Below, piece after piece: positions 25,820-43,469 of a stretch of DNA of 64,000 nt. A model generated the notes under the pieces. The model saw only the letters and a program-made list of their open reading frames with translations. It was not told the DNA's origin and made no database searches. The position numbers were made by a program, and so were the translations under genes. This DNA comes from Candidatus Gastranaerophilales bacterium (GTDB taxonomy: Bacteria; Cyanobacteriota; Vampirovibrionia; Gastranaerophilales; Gastranaerophilaceae), in assembly GCA_944326545.1 (NCBI GenBank), contig CALVEH010000010.1, forward strand, positions 1 through 64,000, read 5' to 3'. Numbering within the stretch: the stretch's first letter is position 1; each line of letters opens with the position of its first letter.

Positions 25820-27082
25820 TTAAATTTTGTCTTTACTTGTTGCAAGACCAGGGTCTAAGTCAGAACCCGTTACAATTTTTCTAAAGGCAAATTGAGCTTT
25901 AGGCAGTGCATACGCAAGTAAAAAACTGCTTAAACTTATGTTGGCTATGATATTGAAACCTTTTGCCCATTTTGCTTTTTTGGCAAAATTTGTGACGTTT
26001 TTTGAGTCTATTGCATTTTTTGCAAAGTTTTCGAGTTCTTTTTTGAATTCGGCGAGTTTTTTAGTGTTTACAAATGCTCTTGGGTCACGGATTCCGTTTT
26101 CAAGATATTTTACATCATAAAATTTTGTTGCATATTGAGAAAAAAGGCTTTTTGGGTTTTTGTCCAAAAATTCTATAATATCTTTTTCTGTAGAGCTTGC
26201 AGGAAGTTTTAAATTTTGATTTTTTATAGCTTCTAATAGTTTTTTATCATCAAGAATCAATGGATCAAGTGCAACATTTAATCCGGCAACTTTGTATGTA
26301 AGTTTGTCCAAGAATTTTGCAAGATATGGAGGGAATAAAAAGTTAAGAATCATCATGCCTGTCATTTTAAACCCGACATCAAGAGCTTCGTTTTTGTTGC
26401 GTGCCGTTGCTACTCTGCCTACTCCGTATCCACCGTCTGTAACTGCCATTTTTTCTACCGTTGAAAAATTAGCAATTTGTGAGATTAAATTTCCTTTAAA
26501 TGATATTTGGCCATTTTTTATGTATTCCATCGGGTTTTTAAATTGTTGTAAGTTTTTTTGTTCTTTTTGCTTTCTAAGTTTTTCAATTTTCTTGCTTGAT
26601 GAAGCAAAAATAAGTTTTGGAAGTACAAAACCCATAAGCGCCATAGGTATTGTTGTTGAAAGTACGAATTTGCCAGCTAAAAGTTTTTCGTATATTGCTT
26701 TGTTATCTTTAACTTTTTTGAGTTCCTTAATTATGCTGTCACTTACCTTTCCTTCAAAGTTTTTGATGTTGAGGTTTATTCCCTGACAGTCACTTTCTTT
26801 AAATAATTTTAGGTTTATATCCGGGTTGAAGCCTTTTTTTCGTATTACATAGTTTGAAATTTTATCAACAAGTGGTATGCAGCCAAGCCATACGGCAGAA
26901 ACTGCGTATTCATCTAAGAATCTTTCTCTTGCTGCAAGTTTTGCTACGTCTTTAGATTCCTTTTTGTTTTGGTTGTAAGTTAATACTATTTTTGATGGAA
27001 CTTCTATTCCGCAATCTCTTACTATAAGTGGTGCTTGTTTATTAGTGTTTCCGATAGCTGAAATAATGCTTGTAATTGTCAT
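25820..27082 (-). CDS. Unknown multi-pass membrane protein
   Basis: This 420-residue protein is not recognised. Hydrophobic segments occur around residues 60-75 (AVSAVWLGCIPLV), 150-175 (STTIPMALMGFVLPKLIFA), 245-265 (MTGMMILNFLFPPYLAKF) and 385-405 (FNIIANISLSSFLLAYALP), with basic loops between them. ISFKGNLISQ near residue 200 matches the F-K-G motif of the neighbouring proteins but lies internally. There is no signal peptide or enzymatic motif. The gene stands alone and has a long structured leader ending in a terminator-like hairpin 25 bases before the start codon, so its expression may be controlled by attenuation. Confidence 0.6.
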   Translation of the reverse strand: MTITSIISAIGNTNKQAPLIVRDCGIEVPSKIVLTYNQNKKESKDVAKLAARERFLDEYAVSAVWLGCIPLVDKISNYVIRKKGFNPDINLKLFKESDCQGINLNIKNFEGKVSDSIIKELKKVKDNKAIYEKLLAGKFVLSTTIPMALMGFVLPKLIFASSSKKIEKLRKQKEQKNLQQFKNPMEYIKNGQISFKGNLISQIANFSTVEKMAVTDGGYGVGRVATARNKNEALDVGFKMTGMMILNFLFPPYLAKFLDKLTYKVAGLNVALDPLILDDKKLLEAIKNQNLKLPASSTEKDIIEFLDKNPKSLFSQYATKFYDVKYLENGIRDPRAFVNTKKLAEFKKELENFAKNAIDSKNVTNFAKKAKWAKGFNIIANISLSSFLLAYALPKAQFAFRKIVTGSDLDPGLATSKDKI

Positions 27083-27107
27083 TTTGTTTCTCCGATTCTG
27101 TCATAAA

Positions 27108-27145
27108 AAAATAGCCTGTTCGTTTTTTCCCGAAAAGGCTATTTT
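27108..27145 (-). promoter_or_regulatory. Terminator-like hairpin in leader of unknown membrane protein gene
   Basis: Read on the minus strand, AAAATAGCCT pairs with AGGCTATTTT (10 bp) around an inner TTCG/CGAA stem and an 8-base loop. The run of seven T residues follows directly and the start codon is 25 bases further on. There is no upstream minus-strand gene within 280 bases, so this is not a normal gene end. An attenuator in a 5' leader is the simplest reading. Confidence 0.5.
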
Positions 27146-27167
27146 CTTATTAAGAAACGGTTATTAA

Positions 27168-27240
27168 TTCACACGAACAACAAACAACCCTATAGCCTTA
27201 TCGGGACTATATGGTGGTTATGATGTTGTCTTGTTGTGAA
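27168..27240. other. Long imperfect stem-loop (73 nt) in divergent intergenic region
   Basis: Outer arms TTCACA/TGTGAA, then ACAAC/GTTGT, AACC/GGTT and TATAG/CTATA pair in register, closing on a CC/GG with a short loop. It lies 22 bases upstream of the terminator-like hairpin on the minus strand. The 307-base gap (27083-27389) has no other visible gene. Confidence 0.5.
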
Positions 27241-27389
27241 TCTACTTTGCATTATTTTTCCTTTGTTGAAAAAGATATCATATTTGTGTGCTTATTTCAA
27301 TATGCAAGTAACTTTTCTTGTAACAATTTTTATAACACCATTACTTTGTTACTGATTTTTTATAGTAAGATTACATGTATAAGATTACT

Positions 27390-29616: not shown

Positions 29617-29967
29617 TTATTCACAAACATGTTCAAGTGCTTTTTCTAAGATAGTTTTTACGTGGTGGTCATTGAGGGCGTAATAAACGTTTTTGCCTCT
29701 TTTTTCCGAGCGAACAAGTTTTGCTGTTCTAAGCACTTTTAATTGGTGAGAGACCGCAGATTTTGTCATATCAAGTAATACAGCCAAGTCGCCTACGCAC
29801 ATTTCACTTTCTTCCAGAGCCCACAATAGTTGTATACGAGTGCCGTCACCCATAACTTTAAAAAAGTCTGACAAGTCATATAAAAGCTCTTTTGCAGGCA
29901 TGTTTGGTCTTGTTTTTTCGACCAAATCAATATTTATAGCTTCGCAGTCTGATTTTTTATTTTGCAT
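29617..29967 (-). CDS. ArsR/SmtB-family metal-responsive repressor
   Basis: This 116-residue winged-helix repressor of the ArsR/SmtB type lets go of DNA when metal binds. The DNA-reading helix is in MTKSAVSHQLKVLRTA. The C-terminal helix DHHVKTILEKALEH has the Asp/His ... His/Glu pattern of the alpha-5 zinc site of SmtB, ZiaR and CzrA. The N-terminal Cys (SDCEAIN) could add a ligand as in ZiaR, while the alpha-3 Cys-x-Cys of CadC is only half kept (MCVGDLA). The ATG at 29967 has AGGGGG upstream. It is divergent from the P1B ATPase gene and has operator palindromes between them. Confidence 0.9.
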   Translation of the reverse strand: MQNKKSDCEAINIDLVEKTRPNMPAKELLYDLSDFFKVMGDGTRIQLLWALEESEMCVGDLAVLLDMTKSAVSHQLKVLRTAKLVRSEKRGKNVYYALNDHHVKTILEKALEHVCE

Positions 29968-30000
29968 AAACGTTTTGAGCCCCCTTACTAAAATAATTAT

Positions 30001-30108
30001 ATATGAATGGTTGTTCAATTGTCAAAGTTTTGTAAAGTTTTTGTTTACTATATATTGACAGTTGAGCAATTGTTCAATTATACTATGAATAGTTGAATGA
30101 TTATTCAA
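30001..30108. promoter_or_regulatory. Zinc-module promoter with three SmtB-type operators
   Basis: A canonical plus-strand promoter is visible: TTGACA (30055-30060), 18 bases, TATACT (30079-30084). The palindrome TTGAGCAATTGTTCAA (30062-30077) fills the spacer. TTGAATGATTATTCAA (30093-30108) lies after the start of transcription, and TGAATGGTTGTTCA (30004-30017) covers the repressor's own upstream region. All three resemble SmtB/ZiaR operators, so binding would block both divergent genes until zinc or cadmium is high. Confidence 0.75.
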
Positions 30109-30124
30109 TCGAAAAGAGGTAAAT

Positions 30125-32023
30125 ATGTGCGAACATCATCACGAACACGGATGTGGTCATAATCATGAAAATCAAAAACAGAAATTGATTAGAATTATTG
30201 TGGCTCTGATAATTTTTGCAGTTGGCTTTGTTTTCCATACAGATGGGATTTTGAGGTTCTTTTTATTTGCTTTTGCTTACTTGCTTGCAGGTGGTGATGT
30301 TTTATATTCAGCTTTAAAAAATATTTTAAAAGGTGAAGTTTTTGATGAAAATTTTCTTATGAGTGTTGCAACAATAGGTGCATTTGCGATTAAAGAATAC
30401 CCAGAAGCTGTTATGGTAATGATTTTATATCAGATTGGTGAGTATTTTCAGCATAAAGCTGTTGAAAAATCCCGTAAATCTATCAAGCAGCTTATGGATA
30501 TTCGCCCCGATTATGCCAATGTTGAAAAAGATGGAAAATTGGTAAAAGTAAACCCTATTGAAGTCAAAAAAGGCGATATTATTGCTGTAAAAACAGGAGA
30601 AAAAATTCCGTTGGACGGTACCGTTATTGAAGGCGAGGCTTTAGTTGATACTTCTGCTTTAACCGGTGAATCTGTGCCGATTTCTGTAAGACATCAAGAC
30701 AGTGTATTGAGCGGATGTATAAATACAAACGGATTCTTAAAAATTTCTGTAAGCAAGGAATTTGGCGAATCAACAGTTTCAAAAATACTAGAACTTGTTG
30801 AACACGCAGCTTCTAAAAAAGCAAAGACAGAAAATTTTATAACAAAATTTGCAAGATATTACACACCAATAGTTGTTTTAGGTGCAGTATTATTGGCAAT
30901 TTTGCCTCCATTAGTTATTGATGGTGCTCAGTTTTCTACTTGGTTATCAAGAGCATTAACATTTTTGGTTATATCTTGTCCGTGTGCGCTTGTTATATCT
31001 GTTCCTTTAAGCTTTTTTGCCGGAATCGGTGGGGCTTCTAAGTGCGGAATATTGATTAAAGGCAGCAGCTATCTTGAAATTTTATCAAATGTTGAGACAG
31101 TAGTGTTTGATAAGACAGGGACTTTAACAAAAGGCGTGTTTGAAGTTAGCAAGATTTTACCTGCAGAAAATGTTCAAGGTGATGAGCTTTTGTATTATGC
31201 TGCAATGGCAGAAGCCTATTCAAGTCATCCTATTGCTGTTGCTTTGAGAAAAGCCTGTAAAAAGGATTTGGATTTATCTTTAATTTTAAATGTTAAAGAA
31301 ATTGCAGGTAACGGTGTACATGCTTTTGTTAATGGTGAAGAAATTCTTGTTGGCAATGTTTCATTATTAGAAAAATTTAATGTAAAATTCACTAAAGTAG
31401 AAGAATCTGGCACTATTGTTTATGTTGCAAAAGATAAACAATATCTTGGTTGCATAGTGATATCAGATGAGATAAAAGCTGATGCCGCAAAAACTATTCA
31501 AGAATTGAAAAAGACAGTTAAAAATATAGTAATGTTAACAGGTGATTCTGCTTCTGCAGCTATTGATGTTTCAAAAAAACTTGGTATAAGTTCTGTTTAT
31601 TCTGAATTGTTACCTGCTCAAAAAGTTGAAAAAACAGAAGATTTAATTGCTAAAAAAGAACAAAATAAAAGTGTTGTTTTTGTTGGGGACGGTATAAATG
31701 ATGCTCCTGTATTAACTCTTGCCGATGTTGGTATTGCTATGGGAGCATTGGGCTCTGATGCGGCAATAGAAGCTGCTGATATAGTTATTATGGATGATAA
31801 GCCATCTAAAGTCGCTACAAGTATAAGAATTGCACAAAAAACAATGAGGATTGTCAGACAGAACATAGTTTTTGCAATAGGAATAAAATTGCTGTTTTTA
31901 GTGCTGGGTTCATTCGGTTTTGTGACTATGTGGGGCGCTGTATTTGCCGATGTGGGTGTAGCCTTTATTGCAATTTTAAATGCGCTCGGGGCTTTACATA
32001 CAGATAACTTTATTAAAGAATAG
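30125..32023 (+). CDS. P1B-type heavy-metal-exporting ATPase (Zn/Cd/Pb)
   Basis: This 632-residue P-type ATPase pumps divalent soft metals out of the cytoplasm. It has the actuator motif TGES (180-183), the transport site CPC (285-287) in the membrane, the phosphorylated Asp329 in DKTGTLTKG, and VGDGINDAPVL near 510. The CPC with the ZntA/CadA overall pattern indicates zinc, cadmium or lead rather than copper. In place of an N-terminal metal-binding domain it has only a His/Cys-rich tail, CEHHHEHGCGHNHE (residues 2-15). AAAGAGG precedes the ATG. The repressor upstream and the ZIP transporter 23 bases downstream complete a metal-homeostasis unit. Confidence 0.95.
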   Translation: MCEHHHEHGCGHNHENQKQKLIRIIVALIIFAVGFVFHTDGILRFFLFAFAYLLAGGDVLYSALKNILKGEVFDENFLMSVATIGAFAIKEYPEAVMVMILYQIGEYFQHKAVEKSRKSIKQLMDIRPDYANVEKDGKLVKVNPIEVKKGDIIAVKTGEKIPLDGTVIEGEALVDTSALTGESVPISVRHQDSVLSGCINTNGFLKISVSKEFGESTVSKILELVEHAASKKAKTENFITKFARYYTPIVVLGAVLLAILPPLVIDGAQFSTWLSRALTFLVISCPCALVISVPLSFFAGIGGASKCGILIKGSSYLEILSNVETVVFDKTGTLTKGVFEVSKILPAENVQGDELLYYAAMAEAYSSHPIAVALRKACKKDLDLSLILNVKEIAGNGVHAFVNGEEILVGNVSLLEKFNVKFTKVEESGTIVYVAKDKQYLGCIVISDEIKADAAKTIQELKKTVKNIVMLTGDSASAAIDVSKKLGISSVYSELLPAQKVEKTEDLIAKKEQNKSVVFVGDGINDAPVLTLADVGIAMGALGSDAAIEAADIVIMDDKPSKVATSIRIAQKTMRIVRQNIVFAIGIKLLFLVLGSFGFVTMWGAVFADVGVAFIAILNALGALHTDNFIKE

Positions 32024-42188: not shown

Positions 42189-43364
42189 CTATATTCTTAT
42201 TTCTCTATTATAATTTTTGTTTAATTTTTGTGTTATCAGATAATCTGACACTTTTGATGCAAATTCTTTGTAGTTTAGTGCAACATTTGCATCAGGATTG
42301 ATTTCGTTAACAGGCACACCCTTGTTTATTGCTGACATCATTGTAAGGTAATTATTAGGAATTTTCCAATAAACTTTTTGTTTTACAACTTCTTCTATAT
42401 CAGAAGTTTTGATGTCTTCATTTTCCATATAACGATTTAATACAAGTTTAATTTTTTCTTGTGAGTATCCAAGCTTGTCGAATAGTTCCATACATCTTTG
42501 TGTGCTTCTTATTGCAGGAAGATTAACAATTGCTATCAGCAGAATTAAATCACTGCTGTCTAATGCAGAAATTGTTTTTGAGTCAATATTTGTTCCTATG
42601 TCGATAACTATGTATGAAAAAGTTTTCTTTAGAGCAGTTAAAATACATTTTATTTGATCAGCAGTAATGTCTTTAGACTTATCAATGTTTAATGGATCAG
42701 CTATGACATAAAGACTTGTGTTTTTATATCTTGTCATTGCTTTTAAAAGTTCATCCTGATCGAGATTGTTTATGTTGTCTGCAACATAATCCATTGCAAA
42801 TGGTGGTGTTAAATCCAAAAAAGTTGCAACATCACCAAGCTGAAGGTTTAAATCAATCAACGCAACTTTTTCTTTTGAAATTTGAGCTAATTCTACAGCA
42901 AGGTTTACTGCAATAGATGTTTTACCTATGCCGCCTTTGTTTGAAAAAGTAGAAATTATTTTACAGCTGTCAGTTGATTCTGTTGAATCTAAATCTTTGA
43001 TGATATTTTGGAAAACTTCCTGAAACTCAGATTTTATGACAGGTTTTGCAATAAATTCTTTTGCACCTGCTCTCATTGCCTTAATTATAATATCGGCAGA
43101 AGCTCTGTTAGATAATGCAATAACCAATGCCTCTTTATTTTTTGCTTTCAAGTCTTTTATATCAGATACTGCACGCTCAAGATTTTCTGATATGTCAACA
43201 ATAACAGCACATTTACCTGACTCTGCCGCAATGGAGAATCCTCTCTCAAAATCAGAAAATTCTGCAGAAATACCTACGCCGTCTATTTCTGATAAATAGC
43301 TTTTTATGACGCTTCTTGAATTTTCGTCATTGTCTATTAGTAATACATCTAAATTTCTGTCCAT
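42189..43364 (-). CDS. CpaE-like ATPase with receiver-like domain
   Basis: This 391-residue protein combines an N-terminal response-regulator-like domain (about residues 1-120, VLLIDNDENSRSVIKSYL) with a ParA/MinD-type ATPase having a deviant Walker A, KGGIGKTS. This is the arrangement of CpaE, which helps place Tad/Flp pili at a cell pole. The domain VIVDISENLERAV has its acidic phosphorylation-type Asp in place. GGGGA lies 6 bases before the chosen ATG at 43364; two upstream ATG codons are not favoured. The Tad secretion genes themselves are not in the window. Confidence 0.8.
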   Translation of the reverse strand: MDRNLDVLLIDNDENSRSVIKSYLSEIDGVGISAEFSDFERGFSIAAESGKCAVIVDISENLERAVSDIKDLKAKNKEALVIALSNRASADIIIKAMRAGAKEFIAKPVIKSEFQEVFQNIIKDLDSTESTDSCKIISTFSNKGGIGKTSIAVNLAVELAQISKEKVALIDLNLQLGDVATFLDLTPPFAMDYVADNINNLDQDELLKAMTRYKNTSLYVIADPLNIDKSKDITADQIKCILTALKKTFSYIVIDIGTNIDSKTISALDSSDLILLIAIVNLPAIRSTQRCMELFDKLGYSQEKIKLVLNRYMENEDIKTSDIEEVVKQKVYWKIPNNYLTMMSAINKGVPVNEINPDANVALNYKEFASKVSDYLITQKLNKNYNREIRI

Positions 43365-43469
43365 AAACATCCCCAAATAACTTGTAATTGGTTTATGTTG
43401 CAATTTTACCATAAATTACAAACAAATGGCAGAAAAATTTAAATGACTTTATTTATGCAAAAAGCGACC

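Follow-up and report, generated by a model that had tools for sequence, protein, structure and literature searches.

The gene for a 420-residue, histidine-free orphan membrane protein (25820–27082, minus strand), present in the window (the whole stretch of 64,000 nucleotides that was analysed), is preceded by a leader which is very likely a histidine leader-peptide attenuator. We consider it highly probable that a ribosome-mediated histidine attenuator controls here a protein that is made during histidine starvation. A first-pass annotation of this DNA had proposed an attenuator leader before an unknown membrane protein gene, consisting of a riboswitch-like structured domain and a terminator. 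Our analysis retains the attenuator and its target gene but not the riboswitch-like domain, since the first stem-loop largely codes for a histidine-rich leader peptide. The annotation had overlooked the ORF contained in this stem-loop (27252–27190) as well as the complementarity between the end of the ORF and the 5' arm of the terminator. Most probably it is the ribosome translating this ORF, and not an RNA aptamer, that acts as sensor.

Folding of the leader (minus strand, 27260–27083) gives −56.9 kcal/mol, against −27.1 ± 3.9 kcal/mol for 200 dinucleotide shuffles, none of which equals it (z −7.7). Both hairpins described in the annotation are present far above chance by this measure, and an inverted repeat was found as well. 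The imperfect stem-loop, given as 73 nt long in the annotation, ranges in our fold from 27242 to 27166 on the minus strand, and the fold suggests that in this genome it conceals the antiterminator strand 2 described below if the leader is untranslated, a property that is not general among relatives. The terminator hairpin (27150–27103, minus strand), identified by fold, inverted repeat and covariation, has two arms of 20 nt each (27150–27131 and 27122–27103, 90% complementary) and a run of seven T (27111–27105) located 22 nt upstream of the gene's ATG at 27082. It is enclosed by an outer helix, in which 27160–27153 is paired with 27099–27092 according to fold and covariation, and which partly masks the ribosome site of the gene (GGAG, 27093–27090). 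The sequence does not point to a transcript start downstream of 27145, the case in which the annotation would have given up its proposal, as a sigma-70-like promoter candidate (TTGAAA, 17 nt, TATCTT; 27300–27272, minus strand) lies upstream of the whole leader. Such sites are not enriched within the window (14 against 10.2 expected by chance). However, 58 of 81 loci have a site matching at 8 or more of 12 positions ahead of the leader ORF, compared with 12.6% of base-shuffled controls, and it is this conserved position across loci, not the frequency within the window, that makes the promoter candidate credible. A search of the contigs of the genome found the leader in a single copy, and a repeated or mobile element was rejected on this ground.

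The leader ORF came to light by reading upstream of the orthologous genes in relatives, the named ones being mostly recorded as Candidatus Gastranaerophilales. In the window it comprises 20 codons (MQSRFTTRQHHNHHIVPIRL followed by the stop codon; 27252–27190, minus strand), is preceded by the ribosome site AAGGA (27263–27259) and overlaps the first stem-loop, a placement which resembles that of the leader peptide of the his operon. Its four histidine codons lie in the stretch CAT CAT AAC CAC CAT (27225–27211, minus strand), which is the presumed stall site from the reading of the ORF and the comparison of relatives. All 81 Gastranaerophilales loci examined have, ahead of the orthologous gene, a short ORF with at least three histidines. 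These comprise 21 loci (L002–L022) from a set of 30 protein loci, in which L023–L027 and L029–L031 have another type of leader and L028 was left out, and 60 further loci chosen among part of the 218 carriers of the gene. Because the histidine-richest ORF had been picked, shuffled sequence was put through the identical rule. With ATG starts only, at least three histidines are found in 80 of the 81 real loci against 4.6% of 1620 shuffles, and at least four in 72 against 0.8%. The leader peptides of relatives, among others MNTLLFTKHHHNHHIVPIRL, MKNEFTLNLHLHHHINLKRL, MIKYIANKQFHHHHHSNLKRL and MNKAYIKLHHHNHSTLGQL (each followed by the stop codon), keep their histidines though much else varies, while the spacing and order of the histidines differ and the C-terminus is partly recurrent (IVPIRL, NLKRL). 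In the genome of the window CAYCAYNNNCAYCAY is present four times, and reading of the frames indicated that the remaining three occurrences are not leaders. None of the six hisD loci that were scanned had a recognisable leader with a histidine run; the few short ORFs with at least four histidines found there mostly have TTG starts. A scan for the histidine-codon pattern in ten genomes, six of them without the gene and hisD, gave 76 matches, of which 30 (three per genome) were made into loci. Among these 30, the single leader was the expected one of G033, and two other histidine-rich short ORFs have no gene behind them.

The last codons before the stop of the leader ORF (strand 2; 27205–27194, minus strand, CCCGATAAGGCT) are complementary to part of the 5' arm of the terminator (strand 3; 27140–27129, minus strand, AGCCTTTTCGGG), so strand 3 can pair either with strand 2 in an antiterminator or with strand 4 in the terminator. 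Strands 2 and 3 co-vary in relatives, as seen in the pairs CCTGAAAAGGCT and AGCCTTTTCAGG, CCCGAAGAGGTT and CACCTCTTCGGG, and CCTTGGAAGGCT and AGTCTTCCAAGG. The pairing is anchored in 75 of the 81 leaders; no anchored pairing was found in the other six (L016, L018, L050, L069, L071 and L086), and that of L057 is weak. Since the partner of strand 2 had been chosen by complementarity, a control was set up: the best complementarity over 12 nt scored 24 or more in 60 of 81 loci, compared with 0.4% of controls. Covariation, which the annotation had named as the check on its proposal, is present in the antiterminator, the terminator and the ribosome-site helix in an alignment of 37 leaders (A3) that was made with MAFFT and built without structure. 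The 37 members are drawn from the 39 leaders with 16 nt between the start of strand 2 and the end of the stop codon; L007 and L077 were left out. In this alignment 92.1% of the cells of the antiterminator and outer helix are paired, against 32–59% when the pairing is slid, and double changes occur in nine of the 14 core pairs of the antiterminator. The corresponding value for the terminator and ribosome-site helix is 88.4% (32–60% when slid), the ribosome-site helix itself reaching 95.8%. Further pair types in A3 are not above column shuffles (25 against 23.6 for the antiterminator, 18 against 20.2 for the terminator and ribosome-site helix). RNAalifold with 14 close relatives predicts the antiterminator, without double changes. 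Because the antiterminator and the terminator/ribosome-site pairings both covary, strand 3 has two mutually exclusive partners, and compensatory changes occur in both pairings.

Our search detected a T-run terminator hairpin in 50 of the 81 loci, whereas the ribosome-site helix is almost fully paired in the 37 aligned leaders; many leaders may for this reason act on translation. The helix over the ribosome-binding site of the gene is, as far as these comparisons indicate, the more constant output. The geometry of the leaders is regular, with the last histidine codon located a median of 5 nt upstream of strand 2 and the stop codon usually 13 or 19 nt past the start of strand 2. For the 75 anchored leaders we folded transcripts cut off immediately past strand 3, in which the leader was occupied by a ribosome footprint. 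In this model a ribosome stalled at one or more of the histidine codons allows the antiterminator in 74 of 75 leaders, against 0 of 75 when the ribosome is at the stop codon. The antiterminator still forms in 66 of 75 leaders with no ribosome, and silence of the gene without translation is therefore not general. As the model assumes a footprint, folds at equilibrium and takes strands predefined by complementarity, these counts illustrate the mechanism and are no proof of it.

The mechanism that we propose is as follows. A shortage of charged tRNA(His) would make the ribosome stall at the histidine codons of the leader ORF, leaving strand 2 free to pair with strand 3. Because strand 2 is then engaged with strand 3, neither the terminator nor the ribosome-site helix would form, and the membrane protein gene would be expressed. 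When histidine is ample, the ribosome would reach the stop codon and cover strand 2, strand 3 would pair with strand 4, and transcription would terminate, the ribosome site of any read-through mRNA being masked. Both the stalling at the histidine codons and the termination in vivo are our interpretation of the sequence. The protein made under starvation would then bring histidine or a histidine source into bacteria which are unable to make histidine.

The regulated protein contains no histidine in its 420 residues; the long ORFs of the window average 1.47% histidine. Its orthologs, of about 420 residues, have none in 71 of 79 cases, one in six and two in two (79 of 80 loci, those with the ORF detected). 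Mean histidine content is 0.04% in the orthologs of alignment A2 (the window and 46 of the 80 loci) compared with 1.57% in the proteins of a sister branch, and for every other amino acid the two branches are within about 1.7-fold of each other. Such avoidance fits a protein made during histidine starvation, as a protein of this kind would need to avoid histidine. The structure model predicted for the protein is all-helical (mean pLDDT 78.6), the sequence has two clearly hydrophobic segments, and family and fold searches gave no clear resemblance to a known transporter. No Pfam or NCBIfam family was found above cut-off for the window protein, 47 orthologs gave scattered weak Pfam matches only, and Foldseek with the predicted model returned nothing at E ≤ 0.001. 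The best VIA-align match (Z 7.1, 132 residues, rmsd 5.8) is within the range of common helical arrangements. An internal repeat, suspected by eye, is not proposed, as a profile comparison of the halves aligned 56 columns only with a probability of 27. No conserved operon partner was found in the 79 loci, the next downstream ORF is on the opposite strand in 50 of 75 loci, and the transcription unit looks monocistronic. Elsewhere in the window, the ORF at 42189–43412 (minus strand) has one histidine in 407 residues, the next lowest content after the 420-residue protein. The region 29617–32023 holds two adjoining, divergent ORFs: that at 29617–30018 (minus strand) presumably resembles a small metal-responsive repressor, and the large one at 30125–32023 (plus strand), with a start rich in histidine and cysteine, we take to resemble a heavy-metal P-type ATPase.

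The membrane proteins of the sister branch are preceded by a different conserved leader ORF, which ends in LMNLxWGL or VMNLVWGL directly before the stop codon. It is present in the genome of the window (L182, MFNNRRYTQSRAKSQIVLVMNLVWGL followed by the stop codon; contig C6 near 113,620–113,642, minus strand) and in relatives (L023–L027, L029–L031 and L226–L255). A scan of 59 genomes gave a single match to the end pattern in each of 33, and 31 of these 33 matches lie directly upstream of a listed family member; the exceptions are G016, where the member is on another contig, and G050, which is without a listed member. All 29 sister-branch proteins counted (from 30 loci) contain histidine, 2–12 residues each. 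In a FastTree tree all 16 proteins with a histidine leader form one clade, for which the node value of 0.072, printed after rerooting, is unusable as support. The early codons of the sister leader seem complementary to bases near the ribosome site of the gene. It is possible that the LMNLxWGL leader is an arrest peptide.

In the genome of the window, which is 99.95% complete, no match to hisG, hisD or hisB was found, and the HisA/HisF family gives a weak partial match only (E 1.2e-4); the source gut bacterium appears to be unable to make histidine. Among 383 genomes of the same family, the gene (E ≤ 1e-60) is present in 218, hisD in 101 and hisG in 100. Both the gene and hisD occur in six genomes, the gene only in 212, hisD only in 95 and neither in 70. 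Thus, of the 218 carriers 6 have hisD, and of the 165 non-carriers 95 do; these genomes are related and so not independent. The same six carriers have hisG. The split between the gene and hisD recurs within the genera g1, g37 and g57 (genus counts cover the genomes named in the lists). The control gene trpB likewise occurs less often in carriers (34 of 218 against 103 of 165), though this contrast is weaker than that of hisD. Shared ancestry and general loss of biosynthesis therefore contribute, and nominal Fisher values for the gene against hisD ignore both. Within the genomes having trpB, the hisD contrast, as calculated from the same tabulation, persists (3 of 34 carriers against 77 of 103 non-carriers). 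In two of the six carriers with hisD, G206 (C10:29015-30756) and G324 (C9:32253-34875), hisG and hisD lie a short distance apart on a single contig, with hisD scores (601 and 535 bits) above those of relatives. Their his cluster was perhaps acquired anew, assembly contamination being the alternative.

The arrangement of a structured domain followed by a terminator had suggested a metabolite-binding riboswitch, which we regard as very improbable. In line with the annotation, which had recognised no known riboswitch pattern, no Rfam family, including the riboswitch and T-box models, reaches its gathering score in the window, and a riboswitch or T-box was rejected on this result; moreover, the structured domain is coding in all 81 loci and the antiterminator consists simply of a pairing to the last part of the ORF. 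We likewise give hardly any credence to a free-standing small RNA or mobile palindrome that lies upstream of the gene by coincidence. A promoter and a terminator do delimit a compact unit, and the cyanobacterial small RNA Yfr10 gives a sub-threshold Rfam match (27096–27168, minus strand; 33.6 bits against 43, E 0.0016), which is probably a resemblance of the terminator hairpin. However, the element is single-copy in its own genome, stands ahead of the same gene in every one of the 81 loci and has pairing that extends to the ribosome site of this gene. A leader peptide that senses something other than charged tRNA(His), for instance a metal ion or small molecule, either as an arrest peptide or as a small histidine-rich protein that binds metal, is also improbable. 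The partly recurrent C-terminus and the conserved peptide end in the sister branch would agree with such a role, but the recurrent C-terminal codons are the bases of strand 2 and change with strand 3, the histidines vary in spacing and order, and the histidine-free product would be left unexplained.

If the leader is a histidine attenuator, the role of its product is a further question. Taken alone, the proposal that the membrane protein helps histidine auxotrophs to acquire histidine or a histidine source is the reading towards which we lean, with modest confidence. The same attenuator might instead govern a protein serving another starvation need, such as peptide handling, envelope remodelling or a general starvation response, and this we consider rather unlikely. 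It would account for a protein without family or fold match to a transporter and without a conserved gene partner, and for a histidine-rich sister branch under a different leader. The 70 genomes with neither the gene nor hisD (for example G022, G025, G035, G060, G062 and G066) are also a point against acquisition. However, the near-complete avoidance of histidine fits acquisition better than a general response, as does the occurrence of the gene mainly where hisD and hisG are missing.

A hypothesis of function for an orphan protein family is thus obtained from regulation alone, with three lines of evidence that are mutually independent in sequence: the leader has histidine codons, its product has no histidine, and most carriers lack his genes. 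The finding would extend histidine attenuation to the Gastranaerophilales and points to an unrecognised route by which an essential amino acid may reach uncultured gut bacteria. In the open-licence literature searched, we found no report of leader-peptide histidine attenuation in Gastranaerophilales, nor of a histidine leader-peptide attenuator on such a membrane protein. More tentatively, the two branches may form a new family of nutrient-acquisition membrane proteins in gut Gastranaerophilales, in which the histidine-free branch, induced by histidine starvation, would replace the lost pathway, and the sister branch would be under an unrelated leader, maybe a new ribosome-arrest peptide. If this is true, control by a leader peptide would be a trait of the family, with the sensor swapped between the branches.

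In the available portion of PMC9413887, the mechanism of the his operon leader is described as clustered histidine codons in a short ORF, mutually exclusive pairing of strands 2:3 and 3:4, and a terminator before the gene. The leader described here has in common with the enterobacterial his operon leader (RF00514, His_leader) the ORF with histidine codons, the exclusive 2:3 and 3:4 strands and the terminator. However, His_leader governs the his biosynthetic operon whereas the present leader governs one orphan membrane protein, the output here is often at the ribosome site and not a T-run terminator, and the RF00514 model does not recognise this leader (19.6 bits against a gathering score of 49). 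In the parts of PMC9413887 and PMC2965389 drawn on here, attenuators with histidine codons are reported from Proteobacteria and, as predictions, from some Firmicutes. The predicted Firmicutes leaders share the short ORF with histidine codons, the antiterminator and the terminator, but in the cases given in these parts they precede his biosynthesis operons or hisS-family genes, unlike the present leader. The histidine transporters hisXYZ and yuiF of auxotrophs, which the same portion of PMC9413887 gives as regulated by HisR or T-box, are alike in that a histidine regulator is retained for an uptake gene, uptake being in our case the presumed function. They differ in the type of regulator and in belonging to known transporter families, whereas the protein here is an orphan. 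Finally, amino-acid biosynthetic enzymes show a low cognate bias, and proteins for recovery from starvation tend to avoid the amino acid concerned (PMC4209129, as far as the accessible text goes). The present protein is alike in avoiding the scarce amino acid, but it is a membrane protein that belongs to no known pathway, and its avoidance, at a mean of 0.04% histidine, is nearly complete.
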